Shown: piece by piece, positions 5,959-45,048 of the stretch | How the letters are laid out: each line of letters opens with the position of its first letter | Position numbering within the stretch: the stretch's first letter is position 1 | Assembly (NCBI GenBank): GCA_024349765.1 | Contig: AP026073.1 | Coordinates: 3,286,001 to 3,350,000 of the forward strand | From: Streptomyces nigrescens | GTDB taxonomy: Bacteria > Actinomycetota > Actinomycetes > Streptomycetales > Streptomycetaceae | Direction of reading: 5' to 3' | Length of the DNA: 64,000 bases | Program-made: the position numbers and the translations under genes | Notes under the pieces: model-generated | What the model saw: only the letters and a program-made list of their open reading frames with translations | Databases searched by the model: none | Told to the model about the DNA's origin: nothing

Positions 5959-6267
5959 TCACGTACTGGACGCGGCAGTCACGGCGGACGTGGGGTGCGC
6001 GGCCGGGGAGTATGTGTCGACGAGTGCTGTCGCCTCGGCCAGCGTCATGCCTGGACGCAGCTCGGTCTCCCCGGTCACGCCGAGGCGTTCGCCCATGACG
6101 AGGGCGAATTCCAGGAGGGCGAGGGAATCGACGTCGAGTTCCTCGAACGTCGCGTCAGGATGCAGCTCGGCCGTGTCGATGCCGAAGGTCTCGTGGAGGG
6201 CCGTGCAGATGACGGTGTAGGTGGCGGAGGAAGCAGGGGGAGTGTGCGTCGGGCGGGGATCAGACAC
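5959..6267 (-). CDS. Acyl carrier protein, stand-alone
   Basis: A 102-aa carrier protein. The phosphopantetheine attachment motif is FEELDVDSLALLE with Ser48, preceded by the acidic helix-I side (TFGIDTAELHPDATF) as in type II fatty-acid and polyketide carriers. Its GTG start overlaps the stop of the upstream acyl reductase by 8 bases, so the two are translationally coupled. With the ketosynthase further upstream it forms a three-gene type II set on the minus strand. It should hold the acyl thioester that the ketosynthase extends and the reductase releases; chain length and starter are unknown. Confidence 0.9.
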   Translation of the reverse strand: MSDPRPTHTPPASSATYTVICTALHETFGIDTAELHPDATFEELDVDSLALLEFALVMGERLGVTGETELRPGMTLAEATALVDTYSPAAHPTSAVTAASST

Positions 6268-7740: not shown

Positions 7741-8967
7741 CTACGGCACCGCGCGGAAGACCAGTACGGCGTTCTGGCCCCCGAAGCCGAACGCATTGCT
7801 CACCGCCGCCGCCATCGGCAACGGCCGTGGCACCTTCGCTACCACATCGAGCTCGATCTCGGGATCCTGCCGCCGCAGATTCGCCGTCGGCGGGATCACC
7901 TGCTCCACAAGCGTCAGCACCGTGCAGGCCGCCTCGATCGCCCCGGCACCACCGGCCGAGTGGCCCAGGGCCCCCTTCACCGCGGTCACCGGCGGCGGCC
8001 GCCGGAAGACCTGCCGCAGCGCCAGCGCCTCCGCCCGGTCGTTGAGGACCGTCGACGTGCCGTGCGCATTGACGTGGTGGACGTCGCCCGGCTCGATCCC
8101 CGCGTCGTCCAGCGCGGCCGACAGCGCCTCGGCCGCCCCACGCCCTTCCGGATGCGGCGCGGTGAAGTGGTACGCGTCGCACGACGCCCCGTAGCCGGAC
8201 AGGTAGGCGCGGGGGCGGGCGCCGCGGGACCGGGCGTGCTCCAGCCGCTCCAGTACGAGCACCCCGGCCCCCTCCGCCAGGACGAACCCGTCACGGTCCG
8301 CGTCGAAGGGGCGGGACGCGCCCGCGGGATCGTCCGCCCGCCGGGACAGCGCGCCCATCTGGTGGAAGCAGGCGGCCGGCACCCGGCTGCACAGCGATTC
8401 GCTGCCGCCCGCCACCACCACATCGCAGGCATCCGTGAGCAGCAGCTGGCGGGCCGTCCCCAAGGCCGTGGCCCCGGACGCGCAGGCCGTACTGACCGTC
8501 AAGTTCGGTCCCCGCACCTGGAGGTCCATCCCCACTTCGCCGGCCACCATGTTCGGCACGCTGCGCGGAATGGCCAACGGGGAGATGTCCGTGGCCCGTC
8601 CCTCGGTGAGCTTGGTGAACTCCGCCTCGTAGCGCTCCATGCTCGCCGTACCCACCCCGAGGACGACTCCCACCCGTACGGGATCCCAGTTGCCCGCGCC
8701 CAGTCCGGCGTCCTTCACCGCCTCGCGGGCGGCCACCAGGGCCATGGCCGCGCACCGGTCCAGACGCCAGGAGAGCCGGCGTCCGAGCTGCTCGGCAGCG
8801 TCGAAGTGGGGCACCCGGCAGCAGAAGTCGACCGGGAGGCCGGCGAGTGACGGCTCGGTCGCCGCGGTGGATTCGCCCCTCAGCAAGCCCTGCCAGGTGG
8901 CGGCGGCCCCCACCCCCGCGGGCGTCACCAGCCCCAGCCCCGTGACGGCCACCTCTCGCGCGCTCAT
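7741..8967 (-). CDS. Beta-ketoacyl-ACP synthase, FabF/KAS II type
   Basis: A 408-aa condensing enzyme with the complete triad: nucleophile Cys162 in STACASG, His302 in NAHGTS and His336 in GHSAGG. It opens with VTGLGLVTPAGVG as in FabF and ends with the FGFGGQNAVLVF signature. The active-site Cys means it is a true extending enzyme and not a chain-length factor. No partner chain-length factor, ketoreductase or dehydratase is nearby, so it must either share those of primary fatty-acid synthesis or do a single condensation. It is the first gene of the ketosynthase-reductase-ACP set; the 230-base gap after it contains a likely internal promoter. Confidence 0.93.
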   Translation of the reverse strand: MSAREVAVTGLGLVTPAGVGAAATWQGLLRGESTAATEPSLAGLPVDFCCRVPHFDAAEQLGRRLSWRLDRCAAMALVAAREAVKDAGLGAGNWDPVRVGVVLGVGTASMERYEAEFTKLTEGRATDISPLAIPRSVPNMVAGEVGMDLQVRGPNLTVSTACASGATALGTARQLLLTDACDVVVAGGSESLCSRVPAACFHQMGALSRRADDPAGASRPFDADRDGFVLAEGAGVLVLERLEHARSRGARPRAYLSGYGASCDAYHFTAPHPEGRGAAEALSAALDDAGIEPGDVHHVNAHGTSTVLNDRAEALALRQVFRRPPPVTAVKGALGHSAGGAGAIEAACTVLTLVEQVIPPTANLRRQDPEIELDVVAKVPRPLPMAAAVSNAFGFGGQNAVLVFRAVP

Positions 8968-35901: not shown

Positions 35902-36996
35902 TCAGCGGACCGCCCAGCCCCGGTCGCGGAGCGCGTCGGTGAGCGGGCGCGCCACGTCCCGGGCCACCCACAACTCGACCGCGCCGTCCGTCGCGTCCGG
36001 GACCGCCGGTGCCTCCGGGAGCACCATGCCTTCGAGGTCCACCCGGGCCTCGGCCACATCGCCGAGCAGCCGCTCCAGCTGCCGCTGCGGACCGCCGACG
36101 GCTATCGAGAGCACCTTGTGCCGGTCCGCGCCCGCCGGCCCGTGCGGGGCGGCGATCCGCGCCCGTCCCGCACTGCCGCGGCGCAGCACCCCGGTCAGTT
36201 CCGCCAGGGCGGCGGTGTGCTGCTCCGGGACGTCCTCGGTCAGCCGGGCGAGCGCCCGGGCCGCCGTCGTCAGGTCCCGGCCCAGCTCGGCCAGCAGCGG
36301 GCCGAGGGCCGCCGCGTTGGCCGCGAGGATGTCCGTCCACAGCCCGGCGTCACCGGCCGCGGTCCGGGTGACGTCCCGCATGCCGCGGCCGGCCAGCCGG
36401 ACCGCGTACTCCTCGCCGTCCACCAGCCGGGCGGCGGTCAGACTCGCCATCAGGTGCGGCAGATGGGACACCAGCGCGACGGCCCGGTCGTGGTCGGCCG
36501 GCGGCAGCAGGACCGGCACCGCGCCGCACAACGAGACCAGCTCCAGCACCCGGTTGAGCGCGCTCTCCCGGGACTCCGGGGTGGGGGTGAGTATCCAGTG
36601 GCGGTCCTGGAAGAGGTCGGCGCGGGCCGTCAGCGGGCCGGAGCGCTCCCCTCCGGCCATCGGATGCCCGCCCACCAGACCGGTGGTGTCACAGCCGAGG
36701 GCCAGGCACTCGGCGTGCACCAGCGCCTTGACGCTGGACACGTCCGTGTACACCTGGGCCAGTTCGGCCTTCTGGTGGTCCGCGATGGTCCGGGCGACCT
36801 CCGACGGGGGGACCGCGATGACCGCGACGTCCACCGGGGCCGGCGGGGGACCGGGGACCCCGGCACCGAGTGCGGCGGCGATCCGCACGCTGTCCGGGTC
36901 GCGGTCGATCAGATAGGTGGTCACTCCCCGGCCGGTGAGTGCCAGGGCGATGGAAGTACCGATGAGACCCGTGCCGACGACGCAAGCGGTATGCAA
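35902..36996 (-). CDS. Prephenate dehydrogenase (Hpg-cluster supply enzyme)
   Basis: Oxidatively decarboxylates prephenate to 4-hydroxyphenylpyruvate. 364 aa: Rossmann ACVVGTGLIGTSIA (residues ~4-17), VDVAVIAVPPSEV, TDVSSVK, and the GGHPMAGGERSGP catalytic-histidine block. A C-terminal ACT-like region (RHKVLSIAVGGPQRQLERLL) with HKV gives tyrosine-type regulation potential. TTG start at 36996 with GGAG seven bases upstream. In glycopeptide-antibiotic clusters an extra copy feeds 4-hydroxyphenylglycine production; here it follows the Hpg operon after a hairpin. It is most likely the dedicated supply enzyme and not the housekeeping tyrA, though that cannot be excluded. Confidence 0.9.
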   Translation of the reverse strand: MHTACVVGTGLIGTSIALALTGRGVTTYLIDRDPDSVRIAAALGAGVPGPPPAPVDVAVIAVPPSEVARTIADHQKAELAQVYTDVSSVKALVHAECLALGCDTTGLVGGHPMAGGERSGPLTARADLFQDRHWILTPTPESRESALNRVLELVSLCGAVPVLLPPADHDRAVALVSHLPHLMASLTAARLVDGEEYAVRLAGRGMRDVTRTAAGDAGLWTDILAANAAALGPLLAELGRDLTTAARALARLTEDVPEQHTAALAELTGVLRRGSAGRARIAAPHGPAGADRHKVLSIAVGGPQRQLERLLGDVAEARVDLEGMVLPEAPAVPDATDGAVELWVARDVARPLTDALRDRGWAVR

Positions 36997-37036
36997 GAGA
37001 ACGCTCCTGGGCCGTGAAGGGGGAAGGCGGACACAT

Positions 37037-37071
37037 CCGGGCCCGCCCGACAGGGGAACGGGCGGGCCCGG
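37037..37071 (-). terminator. Strong hairpin between the exporter and prephenate dehydrogenase genes
   Basis: Perfect 13-bp GC stem (CCGGGCCCGCCCG/CGGGCGGGCCCGG) with a 9-nt loop in the 93-base gap. It would end or attenuate the hmaS-hmo-PhyH-hpgT-EamA transcript before prephenate dehydrogenase. Confidence 0.7.
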
Positions 37072-37089
37072 AGGGTCCTGGGGGAGGTA

Positions 37090-38034
37090 CTACCGGTCGG
37101 CCGGTGCCTGGGCCGGGGTTGCCGGCTCCGTCGCCTCGGCCGGCCTGCCGATCAGCCGCCGCAACAGCGCCGGATTGGTCAGCATCACCGCGTTGCCGAT
37201 CAGGATCAGGGCGACGCCCACCAGGTCCCGCACCGTCCAGTGGAAGCTCTCGAACACCGTGGACAGCAACAGCGCCACGATCGGGAAGAGCACCATGGCG
37301 TACGCGGCGCGCTCACCGCCGATCCGGCCGAGCAGCGTGAGGTACGCGCCGAAGCCGACCACGGAGCCGAAGACGGCCAGATAGACCAGCGAACCGGTGT
37401 ACTTCAACGACGGGTCGAAGGCCGCCCCGCCACCGAAGACCAGCGCGAACGGGGCCGTGAGCAGCGCCCCGTAGGCCATCGCGAAGCCGGTGCCCTGCAC
37501 CACCGGAATGCCCGCGGCCTGGGTCTTGCCGGAGACGACGTTGCCCAGACAGAAGACCAGGGTGCCGAGGGCGGAGAGCACGATGCCCTGGCCCGACCCG
37601 GACGACAGCCCGAAGTTCTGGAACTCCGGCCAGAAGACGGTGACGATCCCCAGCAGCCCGATCGCCCCGCCGAGCAGCATCTTCCTGGTGATCGTCCGCC
37701 GGAAGAAGACCCGGGCGAAGACCATGTTCACCAGCAGCGACATCGCGAAGATGATCGAGACGAGGCCGGTGGTCAGATGCTGTTCGGCGAAGTAGAAGCA
37801 GACGAAGTTGGTGGAGAACATCAGCGCGCCCATCAGGACGAACTGCCCGTGCACCCGCAGGGGATAGCGCAGCGGCAGCCCGCGCAGCCGGGCCCAGGCC
37901 AGCAGGATCACCGCGGCCAGCGCGAACCGGTAGGCGACGGACACCGTGGGGTGCACATCGCCCAGCTGGCCCTTGATGGCCAGCCAGGTCGAACCCCAGA
38001 TCAGCACCGTCACCACGTAGAGGACGGCGTTCAC
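37090..38034 (-). CDS. EamA/DMT-family exporter of the Hpg operon
   Basis: 314 aa with about ten hydrophobic spans in two repeats of five, the drug/metabolite transporter pattern; NAVLYVVTVLIWGSTWLAIKGQ is the conserved start (GSTW motif). The GTG start overlaps the aminotransferase stop by four bases (GTGA), so production is coupled to that enzyme. DMT proteins export amino acids and small metabolites; encoded here it is the obvious exit route for Hpg or its derivative. The frame continues upstream of 38034, but the overlap and the family start decide. Confidence 0.92.
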   Translation of the reverse strand: MNAVLYVVTVLIWGSTWLAIKGQLGDVHPTVSVAYRFALAAVILLAWARLRGLPLRYPLRVHGQFVLMGALMFSTNFVCFYFAEQHLTTGLVSIIFAMSLLVNMVFARVFFRRTITRKMLLGGAIGLLGIVTVFWPEFQNFGLSSGSGQGIVLSALGTLVFCLGNVVSGKTQAAGIPVVQGTGFAMAYGALLTAPFALVFGGGAAFDPSLKYTGSLVYLAVFGSVVGFGAYLTLLGRIGGERAAYAMVLFPIVALLLSTVFESFHWTVRDLVGVALILIGNAVMLTNPALLRRLIGRPAEATEPATPAQAPADR

Positions 38035-39350
38035 AGGCAGCTCCGTTCCAGCAGACCCACCAGCCGGCGGGCCCCCTCGGCGACCTGTTGGGGCGTCAGA
38101 TAACTCAGGGAGAGCCGGAGCTGGCACCGGCCCCCCTCACTGTCCGGGTAGAAGTAGTTCATCGGTGTCCAGATCACTCCGTGCTCGCGGGCGGACTCTT
38201 CCAGCAGCGCATTGTCCGCCGGCACGGGGAGGGTGAGGGTCAGGAAGAACCCTCCGTCCGGCACGTTCCAGCCAATGCCGGCCGCCTCCCGCCGCTCGCG
38301 CGGCAGCAGCCGCTCCAGACTCTCCAGCAGGACCGCCAGGTTCTCCTGGTAGAAGTCGGCGGCCGGCTTGTTGGCCTCGCGCAGCCGGAAGTCATGGGTG
38401 AGCAGCATGCCCCCGATGACCGCCTGGCTGAGCGCCGGGGTGTTCACCGTCACCATGCCCTTGAGCTTGGACAGTTCGTCCGCCAGCAGGGTGCGGCGGC
38501 CGTCCGCGGCCTCCACCTCCTGGTCGGCGACGACATAGCCGACCCGGGCGCCCGGGAAGCAGGTCTTGGCGAACGAACCCAGGTAGACCACCCGCCGCCG
38601 CTCGTCCAGCGCCTTCAGCGTGGGCAGCCCGGTGCCGGTACGGGTGAAGAACCCGTAGGGGTTGTCCTCCAGGAGGATCAGGTCCTCCTCCTCGGCCAGC
38701 TCCAGCAGCCGCCGGCGGGCCTCGACCGGCATACAGGTCCCGGTCGGGTTGGCGAAGTCCGGCACGACGTAGAACGCCCGCGGGCGCTTCCCGGCCGCCC
38801 GCAGTTCGGCGACCGTACGGCGCAGCACCTCCGGGTCCGTTCCCTGCGGGCCCTCCGGGACGTGCGCGACGGACAGGTCCAGCAGCCGGGCCGCCCCGGT
38901 GATCCCGACGTAGCACGGGGACGGCACCAGCAGCACGTCCGACGGATCGGCGAACAGCGCCCGCAGGACCAGGAACATGCCCTCCTGGCAGCCCACGGTC
39001 ACCACCAGCGACTCCGGCGCAGCCTCGATGCCCTCGTCGTTGCGCAGCGCCCGGGCCACCAACTCGTGGATCTGGCCGTTGGTGCGCCCGTACTGGAACA
39101 GCAGGGTGCGCACCTCGTCCGGGGTGCGGCCCAGGTCTTCCACGAGGTGGCGCTGGTAGGCCGCGAGGTACTCACCGATCCGCTCGACCTCGAAGAGCCC
39201 TTCGTACGGGCGTCCCGGGCCGAAGGAGATCGCCTCCGGATAGCGGGAGGTGATCTCGTTGAGGAAATTCATCACCTCCATCAGGGGGTCGCCGAGCGAG
39301 CCGTGCAGCTCGCCGGCCGGAAGTACGGTGGGGGTGGAGCCGTTGGTCAC
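38031..39350 (-). CDS. hpgT: 4-Hydroxyphenylglycine aminotransferase (HpgT-like)
   Basis: Fold-type I PLP aminotransferase of 439 aa: NFLNEITSRYPEAISFGPGRPYEGLF at the start (HpgT/PglE style), YVVPDFANPTGTCM, D229 in LLEDNPYG that contacts the PLP pyridine, and Lys262 in GSFAKTCFPGARVGY. It converts 4-hydroxyphenylglyoxylate to L-4-hydroxyphenylglycine, taking the amino group from tyrosine and so regenerating 4-hydroxyphenylpyruvate for HmaS. GTG start overlaps the upstream dioxygenase stop by 4 bases (GTGA). Assignment to Hpg rests on the adjacent hmaS and hmo genes. Confidence 0.9.
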   Translation of the reverse strand: MTNGSTPTVLPAGELHGSLGDPLMEVMNFLNEITSRYPEAISFGPGRPYEGLFEVERIGEYLAAYQRHLVEDLGRTPDEVRTLLFQYGRTNGQIHELVARALRNDEGIEAAPESLVVTVGCQEGMFLVLRALFADPSDVLLVPSPCYVGITGAARLLDLSVAHVPEGPQGTDPEVLRRTVAELRAAGKRPRAFYVVPDFANPTGTCMPVEARRRLLELAEEEDLILLEDNPYGFFTRTGTGLPTLKALDERRRVVYLGSFAKTCFPGARVGYVVADQEVEAADGRRTLLADELSKLKGMVTVNTPALSQAVIGGMLLTHDFRLREANKPAADFYQENLAVLLESLERLLPRERREAAGIGWNVPDGGFFLTLTLPVPADNALLEESAREHGVIWTPMNYFYPDSEGGRCQLRLSLSYLTPQQVAEGARRLVGLLERSCL

Positions 39351-40264
39351 CGGGGGTCCTCCCAGAGGACGGGGCAGAAGTCCGGGTCGGTGTAGTCGGG
39401 GTTGCCGTGCGCGTCCGTGCGCACCAGCACGTCATTGTTGTAGACGACGAGGTCGCCGGACGACAGCTCGTAGGGCCGCCACTGGTTGGTGCGGTCCTGG
39501 AGGTGCAGCGAGATGGCGCGCCGCGGACGGTCGCTGAGGTTGTACCCGCTGCCGTGGTAGGTGCGGCAGTGGTGGAAGCTGATGTGGCCCTTGGGGATGT
39601 TCACCGGGACCTTGACCACCTCGGAGTTGTTGAACGCGGCGTTCTCCGCGAGCATGTCCTCCAGCTCCGACCGGTCCCGCTCGGCGAAGTGCCGGCTGGT
39701 GGTGTCGTCCCCGCCGGTCTCCTTCCAGCGGTGGCTGCCGTCGACCATCGTGATGGTGCCCATCTCCTCGCCACAGTCGTGGAACGGGATGAACGCGGTC
39801 AGCATCTCGTCGGAGGAGCAGGTCTGCCAGTAGTGCCGGTCGAAGTGCCAGGGCACGATGTTGCGCTCGTCGTCCGCGCGCTGCGGCTTGTGGATCAGGG
39901 TGCTGTTCCACAGCCGTATCTGGCTGGTCTCCGCTATCCGCGCGGCGACCGCGCCGATCACCGGCTTGGAGAGGATGTTCCGGATGGTCTCGTCCTCGTA
40001 GAAGATGTAGTCGTTGTGCCGGTGGACGTCGCCCTTCTCCGGCTCCCAGTACGCCAGCCGCGGCGGCCGCTTCGGCAGGGTGCGGTCCCGGTGGCCGGCG
40101 TAGAAGCGGTCGGCCGCGGCGTTGAGCGTGTCGACCTCTTCGTCGGTCAGCAGCTTCTTCGACAGATACCAGCCGTGCTCCTGGTAGAACTGCACCTCGT
40201 CATCGGTCGGCAGCAACGCCTGTTCGGCGGCGGTCAGCGGGCGCGGGGTGTCATTGCGAGTCAT
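39347..40264 (-). CDS. Phytanoyl-CoA-dioxygenase (PhyH)-like Fe(II)/2-oxoglutarate enzyme
   Basis: 305 aa. The iron-binding facial triad is visible: His140 and Asp142 in PWHFDRHYWQ, and His237 in HCRTYHGSGYN; Arg248/249 in DRPRRAISLH binds the 2-oxoglutarate carboxylate. Such enzymes hydroxylate, halogenate, epoxidise or desaturate small molecules; none is part of canonical Hpg synthesis, so this gene is the unusual member of the operon. It sits between hmo and hpgT with 4-base overlaps on both sides, which implies it works in the pathway, perhaps on Hpg, on an intermediate, or on a conjugate. No halogenase-type Ala/Gly swap is seen in the HxD (Asp is present), so hydroxylation-like chemistry is favoured. 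Confidence 0.88.
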   Translation of the reverse strand: MTRNDTPRPLTAAEQALLPTDDEVQFYQEHGWYLSKKLLTDEEVDTLNAAADRFYAGHRDRTLPKRPPRLAYWEPEKGDVHRHNDYIFYEDETIRNILSKPVIGAVAARIAETSQIRLWNSTLIHKPQRADDERNIVPWHFDRHYWQTCSSDEMLTAFIPFHDCGEEMGTITMVDGSHRWKETGGDDTTSRHFAERDRSELEDMLAENAAFNNSEVVKVPVNIPKGHISFHHCRTYHGSGYNLSDRPRRAISLHLQDRTNQWRPYELSSGDLVVYNNDVLVRTDAHGNPDYTDPDFCPVLWEDPR

Positions 40265-41472
40265 GCCATATCCCTGTCGTTGGTGAGGAGGGGCTGGGAA
40301 AGGTGGTCGGGGGAGAGGTGGGGAAGGCCGGCGGCGGGTGCCGTCGCGGCGGGGGAGAGGTGCAGCAGGTCCGGGGCGATCGCGTCGAGGGCGGGGCGGC
40401 CGGTCAGGGCCATCGCGTCCGTCAACTCCGCGCGGAGGGTGGCCAGCACCCGTTCGGCGCCGGCCGCGCCATCGACGGCCAGGCCCCACAGGACCGGGCG
40501 GCCGACCAGCACCCCACGGGCCCCCAGCGCCAGCGCCTTGAGCACGTCGGTGCCGCGCCGGATGCCGCCGTCGACCAGCACCTCACAGGTCTCCGGTACC
40601 GCGGCCACGACCTCCGGCAGCGCGTCCAGCGCCGCGATCGCGCCGTCGAGCTGCCGGCCGCCGTGGGTGGACACGATCAGGCCCTCGACGCCCAACTCGG
40701 CCGCCTGCCGCGCGTCCTGTCCGGTCAGTACGCCCTTGAGGACCAGCGGCAGGCTGGTCAGCGAGCGCAGCCAGGCCAGGTCCTGCCAGGTGAACGCGGC
40801 GTCGTGGTGCCGCGCGGCGTGCTCGGCCAGGGTGGAGCTGCCGGCCCGGCTGCCGTGCAGACCGCCGGACTGGCCGTCGTCGAGGTTCACCGGCCGGATG
40901 TGCGGCGGAAGGCTGAAACCGTTCCGCAGATCGCGCTCCCGGCGCGCCATCCGCGGCGCGTCGACGGTGATCACCAGCGCCCGGTAGCCGGCCGCCTCGG
41001 CCCGGCGCACCAGCGACTCGGTCACCTTCCGCTCGCGCAGCACGTACAGCTGCAGCCAGAGCGGTCCGGACGCCGCCCGGGCGGTCTCCTCGATCGTCCG
41101 GCTGGCGAAGGTGCTGGTGACGGTGAGCGCGCCGACCGCACCGGCGGCCCGGACGGTCGCCGTCTCGCCCTCCGCGTCGACCAGGCGGTGGTACGCCATC
41201 GGCGCGACACCGACAGGGAAGGACACCGGGGAGCCGAGCAGGGTGGTGCCCGGATCGCAGTGGGAGACGTCGACCAGGGTCCGCGGGCGCAGCCGGTAGC
41301 GGTCGTACGCCGCGCGCTCGCCGCGCAGCGTCACCTCGTCCCCGCTGCCGCCGGCGATGAAGTCGTACACCGCCCGGTCCAGTCGGGCGCGGGCCGCCGT
41401 CTCGTAGTCCTCCGGCGACAGCAGCACCTCCCCGGCGTCGGTCCCGGGCTCCCGGCCGGCCCGCGCGGTCAT
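40261..41472 (-). CDS. hmo: 4-Hydroxymandelate oxidase (Hmo), FMN-dependent
   Basis: Oxidises 4-hydroxymandelate to 4-hydroxyphenylglyoxylate. 403 aa, alpha-hydroxy-acid oxidase barrel: YDFIAGGSGDEVTLRGERAAYDR, VDVSHCDPGTTLLG, PVSFPVGVAPMAYHRL, LQLYVLRER, VITVDAPRMARRERDLRNGF, VLKGVLTGQDARQA and VSTHGGRQLDG (the catalytic His, substituted S-T-H in place of the frequent S-N-H). ATGA overlap with both upstream hmaS and downstream PhyH gene. Function assigned mainly by neighbours: other family members act on lactate or glycolate, and glycopeptide-cluster Hmo has this sequence style. An Ala/Pro-rich tail of about 35 residues is added. Confidence 0.92.
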   Translation of the reverse strand: MTARAGREPGTDAGEVLLSPEDYETAARARLDRAVYDFIAGGSGDEVTLRGERAAYDRYRLRPRTLVDVSHCDPGTTLLGSPVSFPVGVAPMAYHRLVDAEGETATVRAAGAVGALTVTSTFASRTIEETARAASGPLWLQLYVLRERKVTESLVRRAEAAGYRALVITVDAPRMARRERDLRNGFSLPPHIRPVNLDDGQSGGLHGSRAGSSTLAEHAARHHDAAFTWQDLAWLRSLTSLPLVLKGVLTGQDARQAAELGVEGLIVSTHGGRQLDGAIAALDALPEVVAAVPETCEVLVDGGIRRGTDVLKALALGARGVLVGRPVLWGLAVDGAAGAERVLATLRAELTDAMALTGRPALDAIAPDLLHLSPAATAPAAGLPHLSPDHLSQPLLTNDRDMA

Positions 41473-42605
41473 ACGCCGGCCTTCGCGGGCGCGCCGGCGG
41501 GGACCGCGTCGCGCGGATCGTCGGCCTCGTCGGTGCGTGCCCGCTCGCGCTCCACGGCTTCGTACAGCGCCTTGATGTTGCCGCTGCCGAAGGTCCGGGC
41601 GTCGAGCCGCTGGATCAGCTCGAAGAACACCGTGCGCCGGGCGTAGGGGGACCGGGTGAAGACCTGGACCAGCTGGCCCCACTCGTCCCGGTCGGCGAGC
41701 AGGCCGAGGTCCTGCAGCACCGCCGGGTCGATGCCCACCTCGATGCCGCGCTCCGCGAGCGAGGCGTAGTAGCCGGCCGGGGTGGAGAGCAACTCCACGC
41801 CGGACAGCCGGAGTTCACGGGCGGCGTGCACGATGTCGTCGGTGCCGTAGGCGACGTGCTGGACGCCCGGGCCGTCGAACCCGTCGAGGAAGTCGTTGAG
41901 CTGCCCGCGACCGGCGACCGGGTCGGGCTCGACCATGGTGAAGGTGATGCCCCGGGTCTCGTCCTGGACGACCTTCGAGGCCATCGCCTGGCCGCCGACG
42001 ACGATGTACTCGTCGTAGGTGTGCTTCAGGCCCAGCGCCCGCTGGTAGAAGTCGACCATGGTCTCCAGCGAACCGGCCCGCAGGCAGAGGGCCAGGTGGT
42101 CGACCGAGCGGAGCAGGGCCGGGCCGGACGCCTCGGCGCCCTCCGCCGCCGGCCGGTACCGCCCCGGCAGGAAGTGGGTGGTCGCCTCGTCGTCCCCGTC
42201 GCGCTGGACGAAGCTGTGGACCAGGTCGTTGGTCGCGGCGACGGTGGCGCGGACCACCCGCACCCCGTCCTCCTCGAACGTCTCCGGCCCGGACACCGGC
42301 TCGGCCCCGGCGGCCAGCGCCTGCTCGAAGTCCGCGACGGCATCGGTCGACCGCAGGGCCACGTCCCGTACGCCGTCGCCGTGCCGGTGGACGAAGCGCG
42401 CGGCCCGGTGGTCCGCGTGCAGGGCGGAGGTCAGCACCAGGCGGACGCCGCCGTGCGCCAGGACCAGCGACCGGGCGCCGGCGAAGCCGGTGAGCGGCCC
42501 CGCTTCGGCCACCACCCGGAAGCCGTAGGTCCCGCAGTAGTAGTGGGAAGCCTGGTTGACGTCCCCCACATAGAACTCAACGTGGTCGATGGAGTGGGCG
42601 GTCAC
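41469..42605 (-). CDS. hmaS: 4-Hydroxymandelate synthase (HmaS)
   Basis: Fe(II) dioxygenase of the HPPD fold converting 4-hydroxyphenylpyruvate to 4-hydroxymandelate; 378 aa. Iron ligands: His170 (SVDHLALCL), His250 (GVQHVAYGT) and Glu329 (TVFFELIQR). HMS-type features separate it from HPPD: EYIVVGGQAM, a FTRSP where HPPD has FTKP, and ARTFGSGNIKALYEAVE where HPPD has MGFGKGNFKALFEA. GTG start at 42605, no clear Shine-Dalgarno; first gene of the overlapped operon and 109 bases downstream of dhaL. It fixes the committed step to Hpg. Confidence 0.93.
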   Translation of the reverse strand: MTAHSIDHVEFYVGDVNQASHYYCGTYGFRVVAEAGPLTGFAGARSLVLAHGGVRLVLTSALHADHRAARFVHRHGDGVRDVALRSTDAVADFEQALAAGAEPVSGPETFEEDGVRVVRATVAATNDLVHSFVQRDGDDEATTHFLPGRYRPAAEGAEASGPALLRSVDHLALCLRAGSLETMVDFYQRALGLKHTYDEYIVVGGQAMASKVVQDETRGITFTMVEPDPVAGRGQLNDFLDGFDGPGVQHVAYGTDDIVHAARELRLSGVELLSTPAGYYASLAERGIEVGIDPAVLQDLGLLADRDEWGQLVQVFTRSPYARRTVFFELIQRLDARTFGSGNIKALYEAVERERARTDEADDPRDAVPAGAPAKAGV

Positions 42606-42714: not shown

Positions 42715-43383
42715 CTAGCGGAGGGGACCGGACGCCTCGGCAAGTGAGCGGAAAATGGCGGCGGTTGAGGTGGCGCCGGGATCCTGGTGGCCGATGCTGC
42801 GCAGCCCCAGATACGCCGCCCGGCCCTTTCTGGCCTGCAGCGGAACGGTCTCCCGCATCCCGGCCTCGGCGGCCTCGGCCGCGGCGTGCGCCGCCGTGGC
42901 GAACGCGGCGCCGGACTCCGCGGCGGCCCGGAAGGCGTCGACCGCGGGAGCGTATGCGTCGATCATGGTCTTGTCGCCCGGCACCGCCGCGCCCAGCTGC
43001 TGGATCTTCGCCAGCGCCGCGGCGAGCCCGGCCGAGAACCGGCGGGCGTCCACCTCGGAGGAGGAGCCGAGCGCCGCGCCGAGGGCCCGGAACGCGCCGC
43101 CGAACAGCGGTCCGGACGCGCCTCCGACGACCGAGACCAGACAGTTCCCGGCCCGGACGAGGATCTCGCCGGGCGCGTCGGTGCCGTCCGGCGCCGCGAC
43201 GAGTGCGGAGGGCACGAGCCCGGAGCGGGCCAGGCCGGTCTGTACCGCGGTGAACCCCCGGGCCATGTTCGCCCCGTGGTCACCGTCGCCGATGGCGGAG
43301 TCCAGGCGGGTGAGCAGGTCCCGGTCCCGCTGCATGGCCGAGGCGACGTGCTGCATCCAGCCGAGGGCGAGCGCCGCGTCCAC
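42715..43383 (-). CDS. dhaL: Dihydroxyacetone kinase subunit DhaL
   Basis: 222 aa ADP-binding helical barrel subunit: LLTRLDSAIGDGDHGANMARG (residues ~24-42; D33, D35 and H36 in the nucleotide/Mg loop) and GDKTMIDAYAPA, GHQDPGATST at the end are DhaL signatures. It phosphorylates dihydroxyacetone bound covalently by DhaK, with phosphoryl groups coming from DhaM. GTG start at 43383 with GGAGGA upstream. No dhaK is in the window, so this DhaL lacks its normal partner gene. An IclR operator sits 272 bases upstream, and hmaS follows 109 bases downstream, raising the possibility of co-transcription with the Hpg operon. Confidence 0.92.
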   Translation of the reverse strand: MDAALALGWMQHVASAMQRDRDLLTRLDSAIGDGDHGANMARGFTAVQTGLARSGLVPSALVAAPDGTDAPGEILVRAGNCLVSVVGGASGPLFGGAFRALGAALGSSSEVDARRFSAGLAAALAKIQQLGAAVPGDKTMIDAYAPAVDAFRAAAESGAAFATAAHAAAEAAEAGMRETVPLQARKGRAAYLGLRSIGHQDPGATSTAAIFRSLAEASGPLR

Positions 43384-43818
43384 CGCTACTCCTCCGGTTC
43401 TGCCGATCGTGCTGCACCGGCCGGGTCGTGCCGTCCGGCCGGTCCGGTGGCCGCCGGTATGAGCGTCCGGGCCGCCCGGCCGCCGTGGCGGGGTTCTCGT
43501 TGACGCGTGGAACCCCGGCCCCGGCATCACCGGCCCGGACAACACTAAGTTGTCGGTCTTCTCCGCAGGCTTCCGCATGGCAGGCGCTCCTTCGTTGCCC
43601 CGGGTGCCCGCAACCTTGAGGGCGAGTCGGATAACTAACGCTTTACCGAAAGCTGTTCGGCATTGCCGAATGGCCATAGAGAGCAAAACGCAGCGACCCC
43701 GGCCCCGTCAAGGGCTTCGGCGCATTGGCAACGCAGGCAACACAATCGCGGGGCAAGCGGCCCCTGAGCACGGCGAGTTGATGAACCCGTGATGAAGTCG
43801 CGCGGTCTTCCGCGCACG
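43384..43818 (-). other. 435-base gap before dhaL with promoter/operator and an orphan start codon
   Basis: No full gene is supported. An ATG at 43578 with a good AAGGAG eight bases upstream starts a Pro/Arg/Gly-rich frame (beginning MRKPAEKTDNLV) that runs in frame into dhaL, so it is either a 65-residue N-terminal extension, a leader peptide or a deletion scar where dhaK once stood. Upstream of it lies an IclR-type palindrome at 43656-43670. Confidence 0.55.
43656..43670. promoter_or_regulatory. IclR-type operator copy 1
   Basis: Perfect 7-1-7 palindrome TTCGGCA-T-TGCCGAA upstream of dhaL. It shares its layout with the copy in the iclR-dhaM intergenic region, indicating a common regulator. 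Confidence 0.75.
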
Positions 43819-44595
43819 TCAACCGGCGGCGCGCAGCCCCGCGTTGCGCGGCGCGCCGAGATCCCGCGACAGGCTGCGGGCGACCTCGCGGACCGCGATC
43901 GCACACTCCTGGCGAGCGGTTTCGGCCAAGATTCGCTCGACCGGTCCCACCAGGCCGAGCCCACCCACCACCTCGCCGCTGCGGTCGAACACCGGCGCCG
44001 CGATACCCCCGTCGCCGAGCGTCAACTCGCCTTCCTCCAGGGCGTATCCGGTCTCCCTGGCGCGGTCCAGCTGGGTCGCCAGCCAGCCCGGGTCGTCGAT
44101 GCTGGCCCCGGTGACCCGGGCCAGCTCGCCCGCGAGCAGCTCGCCGCGCCGCTCGGCCGGCAGGAACGCCGCGATCGCCTTCCCGATGGCGCAGGCGTTC
44201 CAGGGCAGGCTGGCCCCGGTCTCCAGCACCTGCACCGACCCGCCGGGCCGGAACGCATGGTGGATGACCAGAACCTGACTGCCCGTCAAAATGCCCACCC
44301 AGACGGCCGCACCGGCCTGGTTGGCCAGCAGGTCCGCCCAGGTCACGGCGCGGGTGCGGAGCTCGTGCGAGTCCAGATAGGCGTTGCCGAGGGTCACCAG
44401 GCCCGGGCCCAGCCGGTACTTACCGGTCTCCCGGTCCTGGACGACCATGCCCTCCGATTCCAGCGTGCGCAGCAGGGCGTGGACGGTCGGCTTCGCCACC
44501 CCGATGCGGTCGGCCAGCTCGGTGACGCCCAGGCGCGGCGTCGCCGTGGCGAGCTCCCGGAGCACGTGGATCGCCCTGTGCACAGCCTGGACCAT
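43819..44595 (-). CDS. IclR-family transcriptional regulator (GylR-like)
   Basis: 258 aa: N-terminal winged helix (AIHVLRELATATPRLGVTELADRIGVAKPTVHALLRTLESEGMV, residues ~8-52) and C-terminal effector-binding domain with GASLPWNACAIGKAIAAFLPAE and FDRSGEVVGGLGLVGP, the IclR hallmark. Same family as Streptomyces GylR, the glycerol regulator, consistent with a dihydroxyacetone/glycerol kinase locus. A palindrome 13 bases upstream of its ATG suggests autoregulation and control of the divergent dhaM; the second palindrome puts dhaL, and maybe the Hpg operon, in the same regulon. Confidence 0.92.
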   Translation of the reverse strand: MVQAVHRAIHVLRELATATPRLGVTELADRIGVAKPTVHALLRTLESEGMVVQDRETGKYRLGPGLVTLGNAYLDSHELRTRAVTWADLLANQAGAAVWVGILTGSQVLVIHHAFRPGGSVQVLETGASLPWNACAIGKAIAAFLPAERRGELLAGELARVTGASIDDPGWLATQLDRARETGYALEEGELTLGDGGIAAPVFDRSGEVVGGLGLVGPVERILAETARQECAIAVREVARSLSRDLGAPRNAGLRAAG

Positions 44596-44607
44596 CGATC
44601 AACTCCT

Positions 44608-44624
44608 GTTCGGTATTGCTGAAC
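44608..44624. promoter_or_regulatory. IclR-type operator copy 2, with dhaM promoter
   Basis: GTTCGGTATTGCTGAAC, the same palindrome as upstream of dhaL with two mismatches, in the 57-base iclR-dhaM region. A promoter for dhaM (TTGCTG 44616-44621, 17-base spacer, TAGAGT 44639-44644) overlaps its right half, so binding should repress dhaM; the short distance to the ATG at 44653 implies a near-leaderless mRNA. Confidence 0.75.
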
Positions 44625-44652
44625 GGCGTTCCGGCCACTAGAGTCCTCGTTC

Positions 44653-45048
44653 ATGACACCGCTGGTTGGCATCGTACTTGTGTCGCACCGTGCGGAGATC
44701 GCCTTCGGCGTACGGACCCTCGTCGAGCAGATGGCCGGCCCCGGAGTCGTCGTCGCCCCGGCCGGCGGCACCGATGACGGCCGTACGGGCACGAGTTACC
44801 CGCGTATCCTGCGCGCGCTGCGCACCGCCGCCACCAGCGAGGCCGGCGCGGTGGTCCTGCCCGACCTGGGCAGCTCGGTCCTCGCCACCCGGCTCGTGCT
44901 GACCGACCACCCCGGCATCCACGCCGTCCTGGCCGACGCCCCCTTCCTCGAAGGAGCCGTGGCGGCCGCCGTCACCGCGGCGAGCGGCGCCGCCCTCCCC
45001 ACCGTTCTCAAAGCGGCCGAAGAGGCCCGCCACACCTCCAAGTTCTGA
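44653..45048 (+). CDS. dhaM: Dihydroxyacetone kinase phosphotransfer subunit DhaM
   Basis: 131 aa EIIA(Man)-like domain. The phospho-accepting His12 is in VGIVLVSHRAEIAFG (usual form VSHS.E.A.G), and LPDLGSS is the second family signature. It carries phosphate from HPr to ADP bound on DhaL. Only the EIIA-like domain is present, as is usual in actinobacteria (no fused HPr or EI part). Its genes dhaL and dhaM are split on opposite strands around the regulator, and dhaK is absent here. Confidence 0.9.
   Translation: MTPLVGIVLVSHRAEIAFGVRTLVEQMAGPGVVVAPAGGTDDGRTGTSYPRILRALRTAATSEAGAVVLPDLGSSVLATRLVLTDHPGIHAVLADAPFLEGAVAAAVTAASGAALPTVLKAAEEARHTSKF

Follow-up and report, generated by a model that had tools for sequence, protein, structure and literature searches.

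We analyzed a 64,000-nucleotide stretch of the Streptomyces nigrescens genome (9.33 Mb, two contigs), hereafter the window (G000:C1:3286001-3350000). Sequence evidence supports the reading of a minus-strand gene set in it as a dedicated 4-hydroxyphenylglycine (Hpg) operon without a local nonribosomal peptide synthetase (NRPS), with a coupled DMT-family transporter and with conservation across genomes. Positions are those of the window unless prefixed by the contig, C1. The first gene, hmaS (41469..42605; 378 amino acids, GTG start), encodes an (S)-4-hydroxymandelate synthase-like protein whose best solved-structure matches were 3zgj and 2r5v. It is followed by hmo (40261..41472; 403 amino acids), encoding an FMN-dependent 2-hydroxy-acid oxidase, probably a 4-hydroxymandelate oxidase (PF01070, 439 bits); by the gene of a PhyH-family Fe(II)/2-oxoglutarate oxygenase (39347..40264; 305 amino acids; PF05721, 85 bits) with H140-x-D142, H237, and R248 intact; by hpgT (38031..39350; 439 amino acids; PF00155, 98 bits), encoding an Hpg transaminase-like protein; and by an EamA/DMT-family transporter gene (37090..38034; PF00892, 100.7 bits in two stretches), whose start overlaps the hpgT stop in the tetranucleotide GTGA. 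All four 4-base stop/start overlaps among these five genes were confirmed. The gene of prephenate dehydrogenase (35902..36996; 364 amino acids; NF005112, 382 bits against a cut-off of 294) lies last; its TTG start was kept, as any later start loses the N-terminal GTGLIG motif. The 93-bp gap between EamA and prephenate dehydrogenase holds a hairpin with a 14-bp GC stem (37029..37078, main stem 37036-37072, minus strand) of -50.7 kcal/mol (z -3.57; none of 200 shuffles was equally stable), and a terminator scan gave no terminator-like site at this place 5' of prephenate dehydrogenase. Open reading frames and Pfam and NCBIfam profiles bore out an earlier note on this DNA as to the six genes, the overlaps, and the hairpin.

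By its aligned residues, the window HmaS is of the hydroxymandelate synthase type rather than of the 4-hydroxyphenylpyruvate dioxygenase (HPPD) type. It scored 266.5 bits against 3zgj, 263.5 against 2r5v, 252.6 against 7yvv, and 214.6 against 1t47, and at two diagnostic places it reads FTMVEP and FGSGNIKALY, matching 2r5v and 3zgj at both. The rule, read from the alignment of 3zgj, 2r5v, and 1t47, is T-x-I/V with N-I...Y for the HmaS type and P-x-N with N-F...F for the HPPD type. Among relatives the first motif varies (V-x-L in about 20 loci), and for some loci the motif reading is incomplete or absent. A second copy in the genome, at C1:512345, reads FPINEP/FGKGNFKALF, resembles 1t47, and is of the HPPD type. 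We take 3zgj and 2r5v, deposited under the names HPPD and PCZA361.1, respectively, to be HmaS enzymes, 2r5v presumably being that of A. orientalis. Because 7yvv, deposited as HPPD, bears HmaS-type residues, deposited names alone are no guide to HmaS or HPPD identity. In one report, the crystal structure of Hms is given as 2RV5 and conserved residues are described that tell Hms from HPPD (PMC3720870).

The earlier note had allowed that the protein might really be an HPPD for tyrosine degradation. Such a role would agree with the TIGR01263 (4HPPD) profile, exceeded at 312.6 bits against a cut-off of 277, with the name hppD borne by an annotated orthologue, with the 7yvv match, and with the presence, 4-6 kb away, of two genes of the HpcH/HpaI family, which includes aromatic-degradation aldolases. 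We nevertheless rejected this role as very improbable, given that 3zgj and 2r5v outscore 1t47, that the window residues are of the 2r5v/3zgj type at both places, as are those of 7yvv despite its name, and that the genome holds a separate HPPD-type copy.

We evaluated how widely the arrangement is conserved. The order hmaS-hmo-PhyH-hpgT-EamA, termed type A, recurred in 16 distinct loci: the window, ten named Streptomyces genomes (L098-L107, including S. noursei, S. piniterrae, and S. diastatochromogenes), S. netropsis (L112), S. morookaense (L113), Wenjunlia vitaminophila (L163), L069, and plasmid p1 of S. angustmyceticus (L228). With the start codon nearest to -4 chosen, which favors that value, a -4 junction was found for HmaS>Hmo in 16/16 loci, Hmo>PhyH in 14/16, PhyH>HpgT in 16/16, and HpgT>EamA in 15/16. 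Such recurrence, with the junctions kept, shows that the gene order and overlaps are real and not a product of chance. Prephenate dehydrogenase was found in 13/16 loci, all but L112, L113, and L163. Of the six-gene order in the earlier note, the five-gene core was therefore upheld, and prephenate dehydrogenase as a constant member was not. The ratio of nonsynonymous to synonymous substitution rates (dN/dS) of the six genes ranged from 0.09 to 0.32 against NRRL S-337 and from 0.13 to 0.40 against S. noursei; the six genes are under purifying selection.

Two sets of neighboring genes were considered as further parts of the module and rejected. IclR and DhaL genes were both found in 10/16 type A stretches; because the remaining 6 lacked the pair, they were treated as neighbors. 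In the window (42715-45048), DhaL and DhaM-like (EIIA-man) genes accompany the IclR regulator without a DhaK gene, and the single Dak1 (DhaK) match of the genome lies at C1:2540710. A CHMI-like isomerase was found in 9/14 type A loci, the window and L228 aside, and is hence accessory; it was not found in the window, L098, L103, L112, L113, or L163, and L228 has an annotated isomerase in its place.

Prephenate dehydrogenase, HmaS, Hmo, and HpgT form the established route from prephenate to L-Hpg. The same four enzyme families serve the Hpg pathway of glycopeptide, calcium-dependent antibiotic (CDA), and nocardicin producers, and the window HmaS matches 2r5v. NRPS-type Hpg clusters differ from the window, where no NRPS is nearby, PhyH stands between Hmo and HpgT, and an EamA gene is coupled to the operon. 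In a profile search of the genome, some 55 kb separated the operon from the nearest Condensation domain (G000:C1:3383789); a motif scan found no adenylation (A) domain in the window, and no match to PF04820, the one halogenase family searched, was found there. The nearest carrier protein (~6073-6210) is 29.7 kb from the operon, near a ketosynthase gene (7741-8967). For the families searched, the earlier claim that no NRPS, carrier protein, or halogenase lies within ~25 kb holds, and the mark of a canonical Hpg-NRPS cluster, an Hpg-activating NRPS within it, is missing here. The ketosynthase and the carrier protein look like a type II polyketide synthase (PKS), 30 kb from the operon.

The absence of NRPS genes extended to the other type A loci. 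With one 2500-amino-acid NRPS piece, one ATP-grasp protein, and one CreD protein as queries, no similarity at 1e-15 was found in 16/16 type A stretches, most of them reaching ~10 kb to each side of PhyH, nor in five duplicate records. The comparison proposed in the earlier note, of gene order across genomes without an NRPS, thus came out in its favor, for the five-gene core, in all 16 stretches.

The gene that defines these loci proved to be that of PhyH. PhyH was found in 32/392 genus genomes (E<=1e-40) and, in a class search, in 7/394 (1e-80); HpgT was found in 135/392 genus genomes (1e-70). Among named genomes, 207 PhyH relatives were matched and 80 of them kept and examined; from the genus search the 33 matches outside the window's own genome were fetched. 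HmaS lay no more than two genes from PhyH in 80/80 named loci and in 25/33 genus loci, the two sets partly overlapping. As for the remaining genus loci, the HmaS next to PhyH is fragmented in L087, and L091-L097 have none in the stretch. Hmo was present anywhere in 37 of the 80 named stretches, and HpgT was present in 33. After 14 genus loci that duplicated named ones were dropped, ahead of the tree and the identity comparison, 93 distinct loci were sorted into five neighborhood types: exporter-only (A, 15 loci, L228 not counted), MFS/dehydrogenase (A2, 6), ATP-grasp ligase (B, 5), type II PKS with diazotase-like ligase (C, 63), and NRPS (D, 4). Across types A, A2, B, C, and D, mean identity to the window was 86, 82, 71, 68, and 62% for PhyH; 82, 68, 61, 57, and 56% for HpgT; 76, 61, 57, 57, and 53% for Hmo; and 79, 50, 47, 47, and 44% for HmaS. 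PhyH identity falls least, in a set of loci gathered by PhyH similarity, which favors PhyH. On this comparative sequence evidence PhyH is the defining gene, and the reading has to be re-centered on it; the earlier note had correctly listed PhyH among the six genes and had given it too little weight.

Type A2 loci lack EamA and have alcohol dehydrogenase, PhzF-like, MFS, and RidA-like genes instead. ATP-grasp genes were found in 5/5 type B loci, with a luciferase-like monooxygenase in the one that was annotated. The type B loci L073-L076, L081, L115, L116, and L118, in which Hpg/PhyH modules adjoin ATP-grasp ligase genes, appear to be NRPS-free peptide clusters; L075 carries three ATP-grasp genes and a luciferase-like monooxygenase. 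The 63 type C loci, in Micromonospora, Kribbella, Dactylosporangium, Actinokineospora, Streptomyces, and other hosts, held a ketosynthase in 62, an AvaA6-like ligase in 61 (501 bits in L079, against a cut-off of 975), a CreD-like nitrosuccinate lyase in 9, and an E1-alpha-like protein in 42. Type II PKS loci such as L079, L120, L123, L130, and L173 exemplify the type, some with nitrosuccinate lyase and others with DUF3050 and E1 alpha/beta. In type D, L086 combines a pyridoxal decarboxylase with NRPS domains, and part of this gene set also occurs in L087 and L089. The earlier statement that the Hpg set always feeds an NRPS did not survive this comparison: homologous HmaS/Hmo/HpgT sets stand beside ATP-grasp genes in all type B loci, and in 61/63 type C loci the HmaS-PhyH pair has type II PKS genes and a diazotase-like ligase as neighbors.

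We take PF01959 to be a family associated with synthesis of 3-amino-4-hydroxybenzoate (3,4-AHBA). It was absent from 9/10 type C genus genomes tested, the exception being G080, where it lies 22 kb from PhyH, and it was present in 2/5 type B genomes. In a survey that gathered clusters by their 3,4-AHBA synthesis genes, the ava and cma clusters, for avenalumic and p-coumaric acid, respectively, are diazotization dependent and rely on 3,4-AHBA (PMC10777205). Type C loci share with them the ketosynthase, the AvaA6-like ligase, and, in some, nitrosuccinate lyase, and differ in that most of the genomes tested lack PF01959; type A, as in the window, has none of these genes. Because nine of the ten type C genomes lack PF01959 while ava and cma clusters need 3,4-AHBA, type C hints that the Hpg/PhyH module may deliver an amine.

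The PhyH metal triad and distal arginine (H140, D142, H237, and R248) were invariant in 50 aligned sequences. With an Asp in its HxD...H site, the enzyme is not of the HxG/A type, which marks the halogenases among Fe/2-oxoglutarate enzymes. An AlphaFold2 model (mean predicted local distance difference test score, pLDDT, 88.6; predicted template-modeling score, pTM, 0.90) gave SnoN and SnoK as top Foldseek matches and, further down, MysH, GriE, proline hydroxylase H11, and EctD; GriE and H11 are free-amino-acid hydroxylases. Judged by the model, PhyH belongs to an oxygenase family in which free-amino-acid hydroxylases occur, and the fold does not fix its substrate. SnoN/SnoK, GriE, and EctD share the fold and the HxD...H...R site at 16-24% identity; constant linkage to HmaS sets the PhyH here apart. 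Plasmid p1 of the cyanobacterium Planktothrix agardhii carries a PhyH relative of 42% identity (L229:3692-4666), with asparagine-synthase-related and aminotransferase genes 5-8 kb away.

These elements suggest a pathway. Prephenate dehydrogenase would supply 4-hydroxyphenylpyruvate, which HmaS would convert to (S)-4-hydroxymandelate, Hmo to 4-hydroxybenzoylformate, and HpgT to L-Hpg. The constant linkage of PhyH and its intact metal and 2-oxoglutarate site suggest that it uses O2 and 2-oxoglutarate to oxidize L-Hpg or an intermediate of the route. The small product may then leave through the translationally coupled EamA protein, a putative exporter, and, speculatively, its role could be extracellular, that of a free metabolite of amino-acid type such as an antimetabolite or a signal. 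That this NRPS-free operon makes and exports an oxidized Hpg-type metabolite is, in our judgment, the most likely reading, at about even odds. With rather less than even confidence, we propose that PhyH carries out an undescribed 2-oxoglutarate-dependent turnover of Hpg or an intermediate to a new amino-acid-type block. Here the block would be the exported end product; in relatives it would feed ATP-grasp peptide ligases, NRPSs, and those type II PKSs that come with diazotase-like ligases, where it would take the place of 3-amino-4-hydroxybenzoate as the amine source. The earlier interpretation retains its dedicated operon, its lack of a local NRPS, and its coupled transporter, and loses the invariable NRPS and the minor part it gave to PhyH. 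Among the listings from searches of the open-licence PubMed Central literature, neither an Hpg operon with a PhyH enzyme nor an Hpg exporter was found.

The exported product might instead be plain Hpg, or D-Hpg if PhyH were a radical epimerase. SnoN, an Fe/2-oxoglutarate epimerase, and SnoK are the closest matches of PhyH in both sequence and fold, yet identity to SnoN in the fold search was 23-24%, a superfamily-level match, and we consider this outcome unlikely. The transporter itself matched PF00892 and scored 90.6 bits against TIGR00950, below the cut-off of 230.2. Of the exporter that the earlier note coupled to the operon, a DMT-family transporter gene that overlaps hpgT in nearly all type A loci was corroborated. 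EamA could also protect the cell from the compound or import it, with the operon contributing to a larger pathway assembled by enzymes encoded elsewhere in the genome. The related modules of types B and C do sit with assembly enzymes; against this, diazotase-like, CreE, CreD, and ATP-grasp markers were found in 0/15 type A and 0/6 type A2 loci, and we consider this alternative improbable.

Several observations weigh against export of an oxidized, NRPS-independent Hpg metabolite. An NRPS 2.3 Mb from the operon has an A domain, at C1:5623578, with the code DAYHLGALC, which we take to be Hpg-like from a code rule and a reference fragment. The gene (C1:5621892-5626115) was read as T-C-A-T with a thioesterase-like end, and the genome has 40 Condensation-domain matches. 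The operon could accordingly be imagined to supply L-Hpg to a distant NRPS, most simply to this one. Its neighborhood tells against such a supply: a further HmaS lies at C1:5629832, about 4 kb from the NRPS gene, and a second full operon, HmaS-Hmo-PhyH-HpgT-prephenate dehydrogenase, lies at about C1:5.655-5.660 Mb, about 24 kb beyond that region. With the Hpg-type A domain as query, 30 of 123 listed matches in seven other type A genomes (the seventh, G725, confirmed as type A) were fetched; 1/30 had an Hpg-like code (L231, the G194 orthologue), and 4/30 gave no code. The whole-genome search proposed in the earlier note thus yielded an Hpg-type NRPS, which goes part of the way toward the refutation that the note had set. 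This NRPS has its own HmaS nearby and showed a close orthologue in 1/7 other genomes, and supply of a distant NRPS by the operon is quite unlikely. When the best four candidates per genome were scored, one HpgT (E<=1e-70), that of the operon, was found in G146, G366, G175, G090, and G219, and two were found in G000 and G194. Because 16/16 stretches were NRPS-free and the operon's HpgT was the only copy found in 5/7 sampled genomes, the type A operon appears unlikely, on sequence grounds, to feed a distant NRPS. In the second Hpg region (G000:C1:5615001-5675000; L045-L047), PhzF-like, RidA-like, MFS, and alcohol dehydrogenase genes lie by the operon.

The control loci carry a further objection. 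Twenty HpgT loci were picked for lacking PhyH, down the HpgT ranking and not at random; PhyH was accordingly absent from 20/20. A trio of about 389, 242, and 449 amino acids, read as DpgA-C by size and order, was present in 12/20, a protein of about 800 amino acids spanning Hmo and HpgT was present in 9/20, and NRPS similarity within the stretch was present in 7/20. Because an NRPS was seen in only 7/20 controls, its absence within 10 kb is not by itself a sharp test. The window HpgT is homologous to, and groups with, the aminotransferases that accompany HmaS and Hmo elsewhere and is 49-59% identical to HpgT in 19 of the PhyH-less loci. The exception, L208 (9713-11032; G089, a 5.7-Mb genome), encodes an HpgT 79% identical to that of the window, perhaps a remnant; no HmaS, Hmo, or PhyH was found within the 20 kb fetched.

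The remaining objections concern single enzymes. Hmo is closer to lactate and glycolate oxidases (318-339 bits) than to the solved Hmo 5zzp (290 bits), so its name, which is probable, comes from genomic context. In a quick HpgT tree, with several weak branches and ten rows under half filled, the window sat in a supported 12-row clade of type A rows, and type A as a whole did not form one clade: three changes were needed, with L112/L113 separate and L163 elsewhere. Because these fall outside the main HpgT clade, the type A arrangement may have arisen more than once. Among type C stretches, Hmo was found in 21/63 and HpgT in 11/63, so that the full Hpg module was seen in a minority. For the PhyH relatives of 55-58% identity in L091-L094, the 20 kb fetched contained no HmaS, and the genomes concerned (G099, G365, G327, and G075) fell outside the HpgT-positive set (E<=1e-70); members of the wider PhyH family must accordingly use other substrates. 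L091-L094 share a neighborhood, which in L092 includes B12-binding radical SAM protein, ATP-grasp, and MFS genes.

In vancomycin-type antibiotics, Hpg is a familiar NRPS building block. If the proposed reading is true, Hpg would also be made for non-NRPS ends in actinobacteria, with an unstudied oxygenase marking these routes. The module is easily overlooked: in the one annotated type A record examined, its genes are called hppD, phytanoyl-CoA dioxygenase, and DMT transporter. Once identified, the chemistry of the module would be relevant to the 93 distinct PhyH-HmaS loci sorted here and perhaps to others among the 207 relatives.

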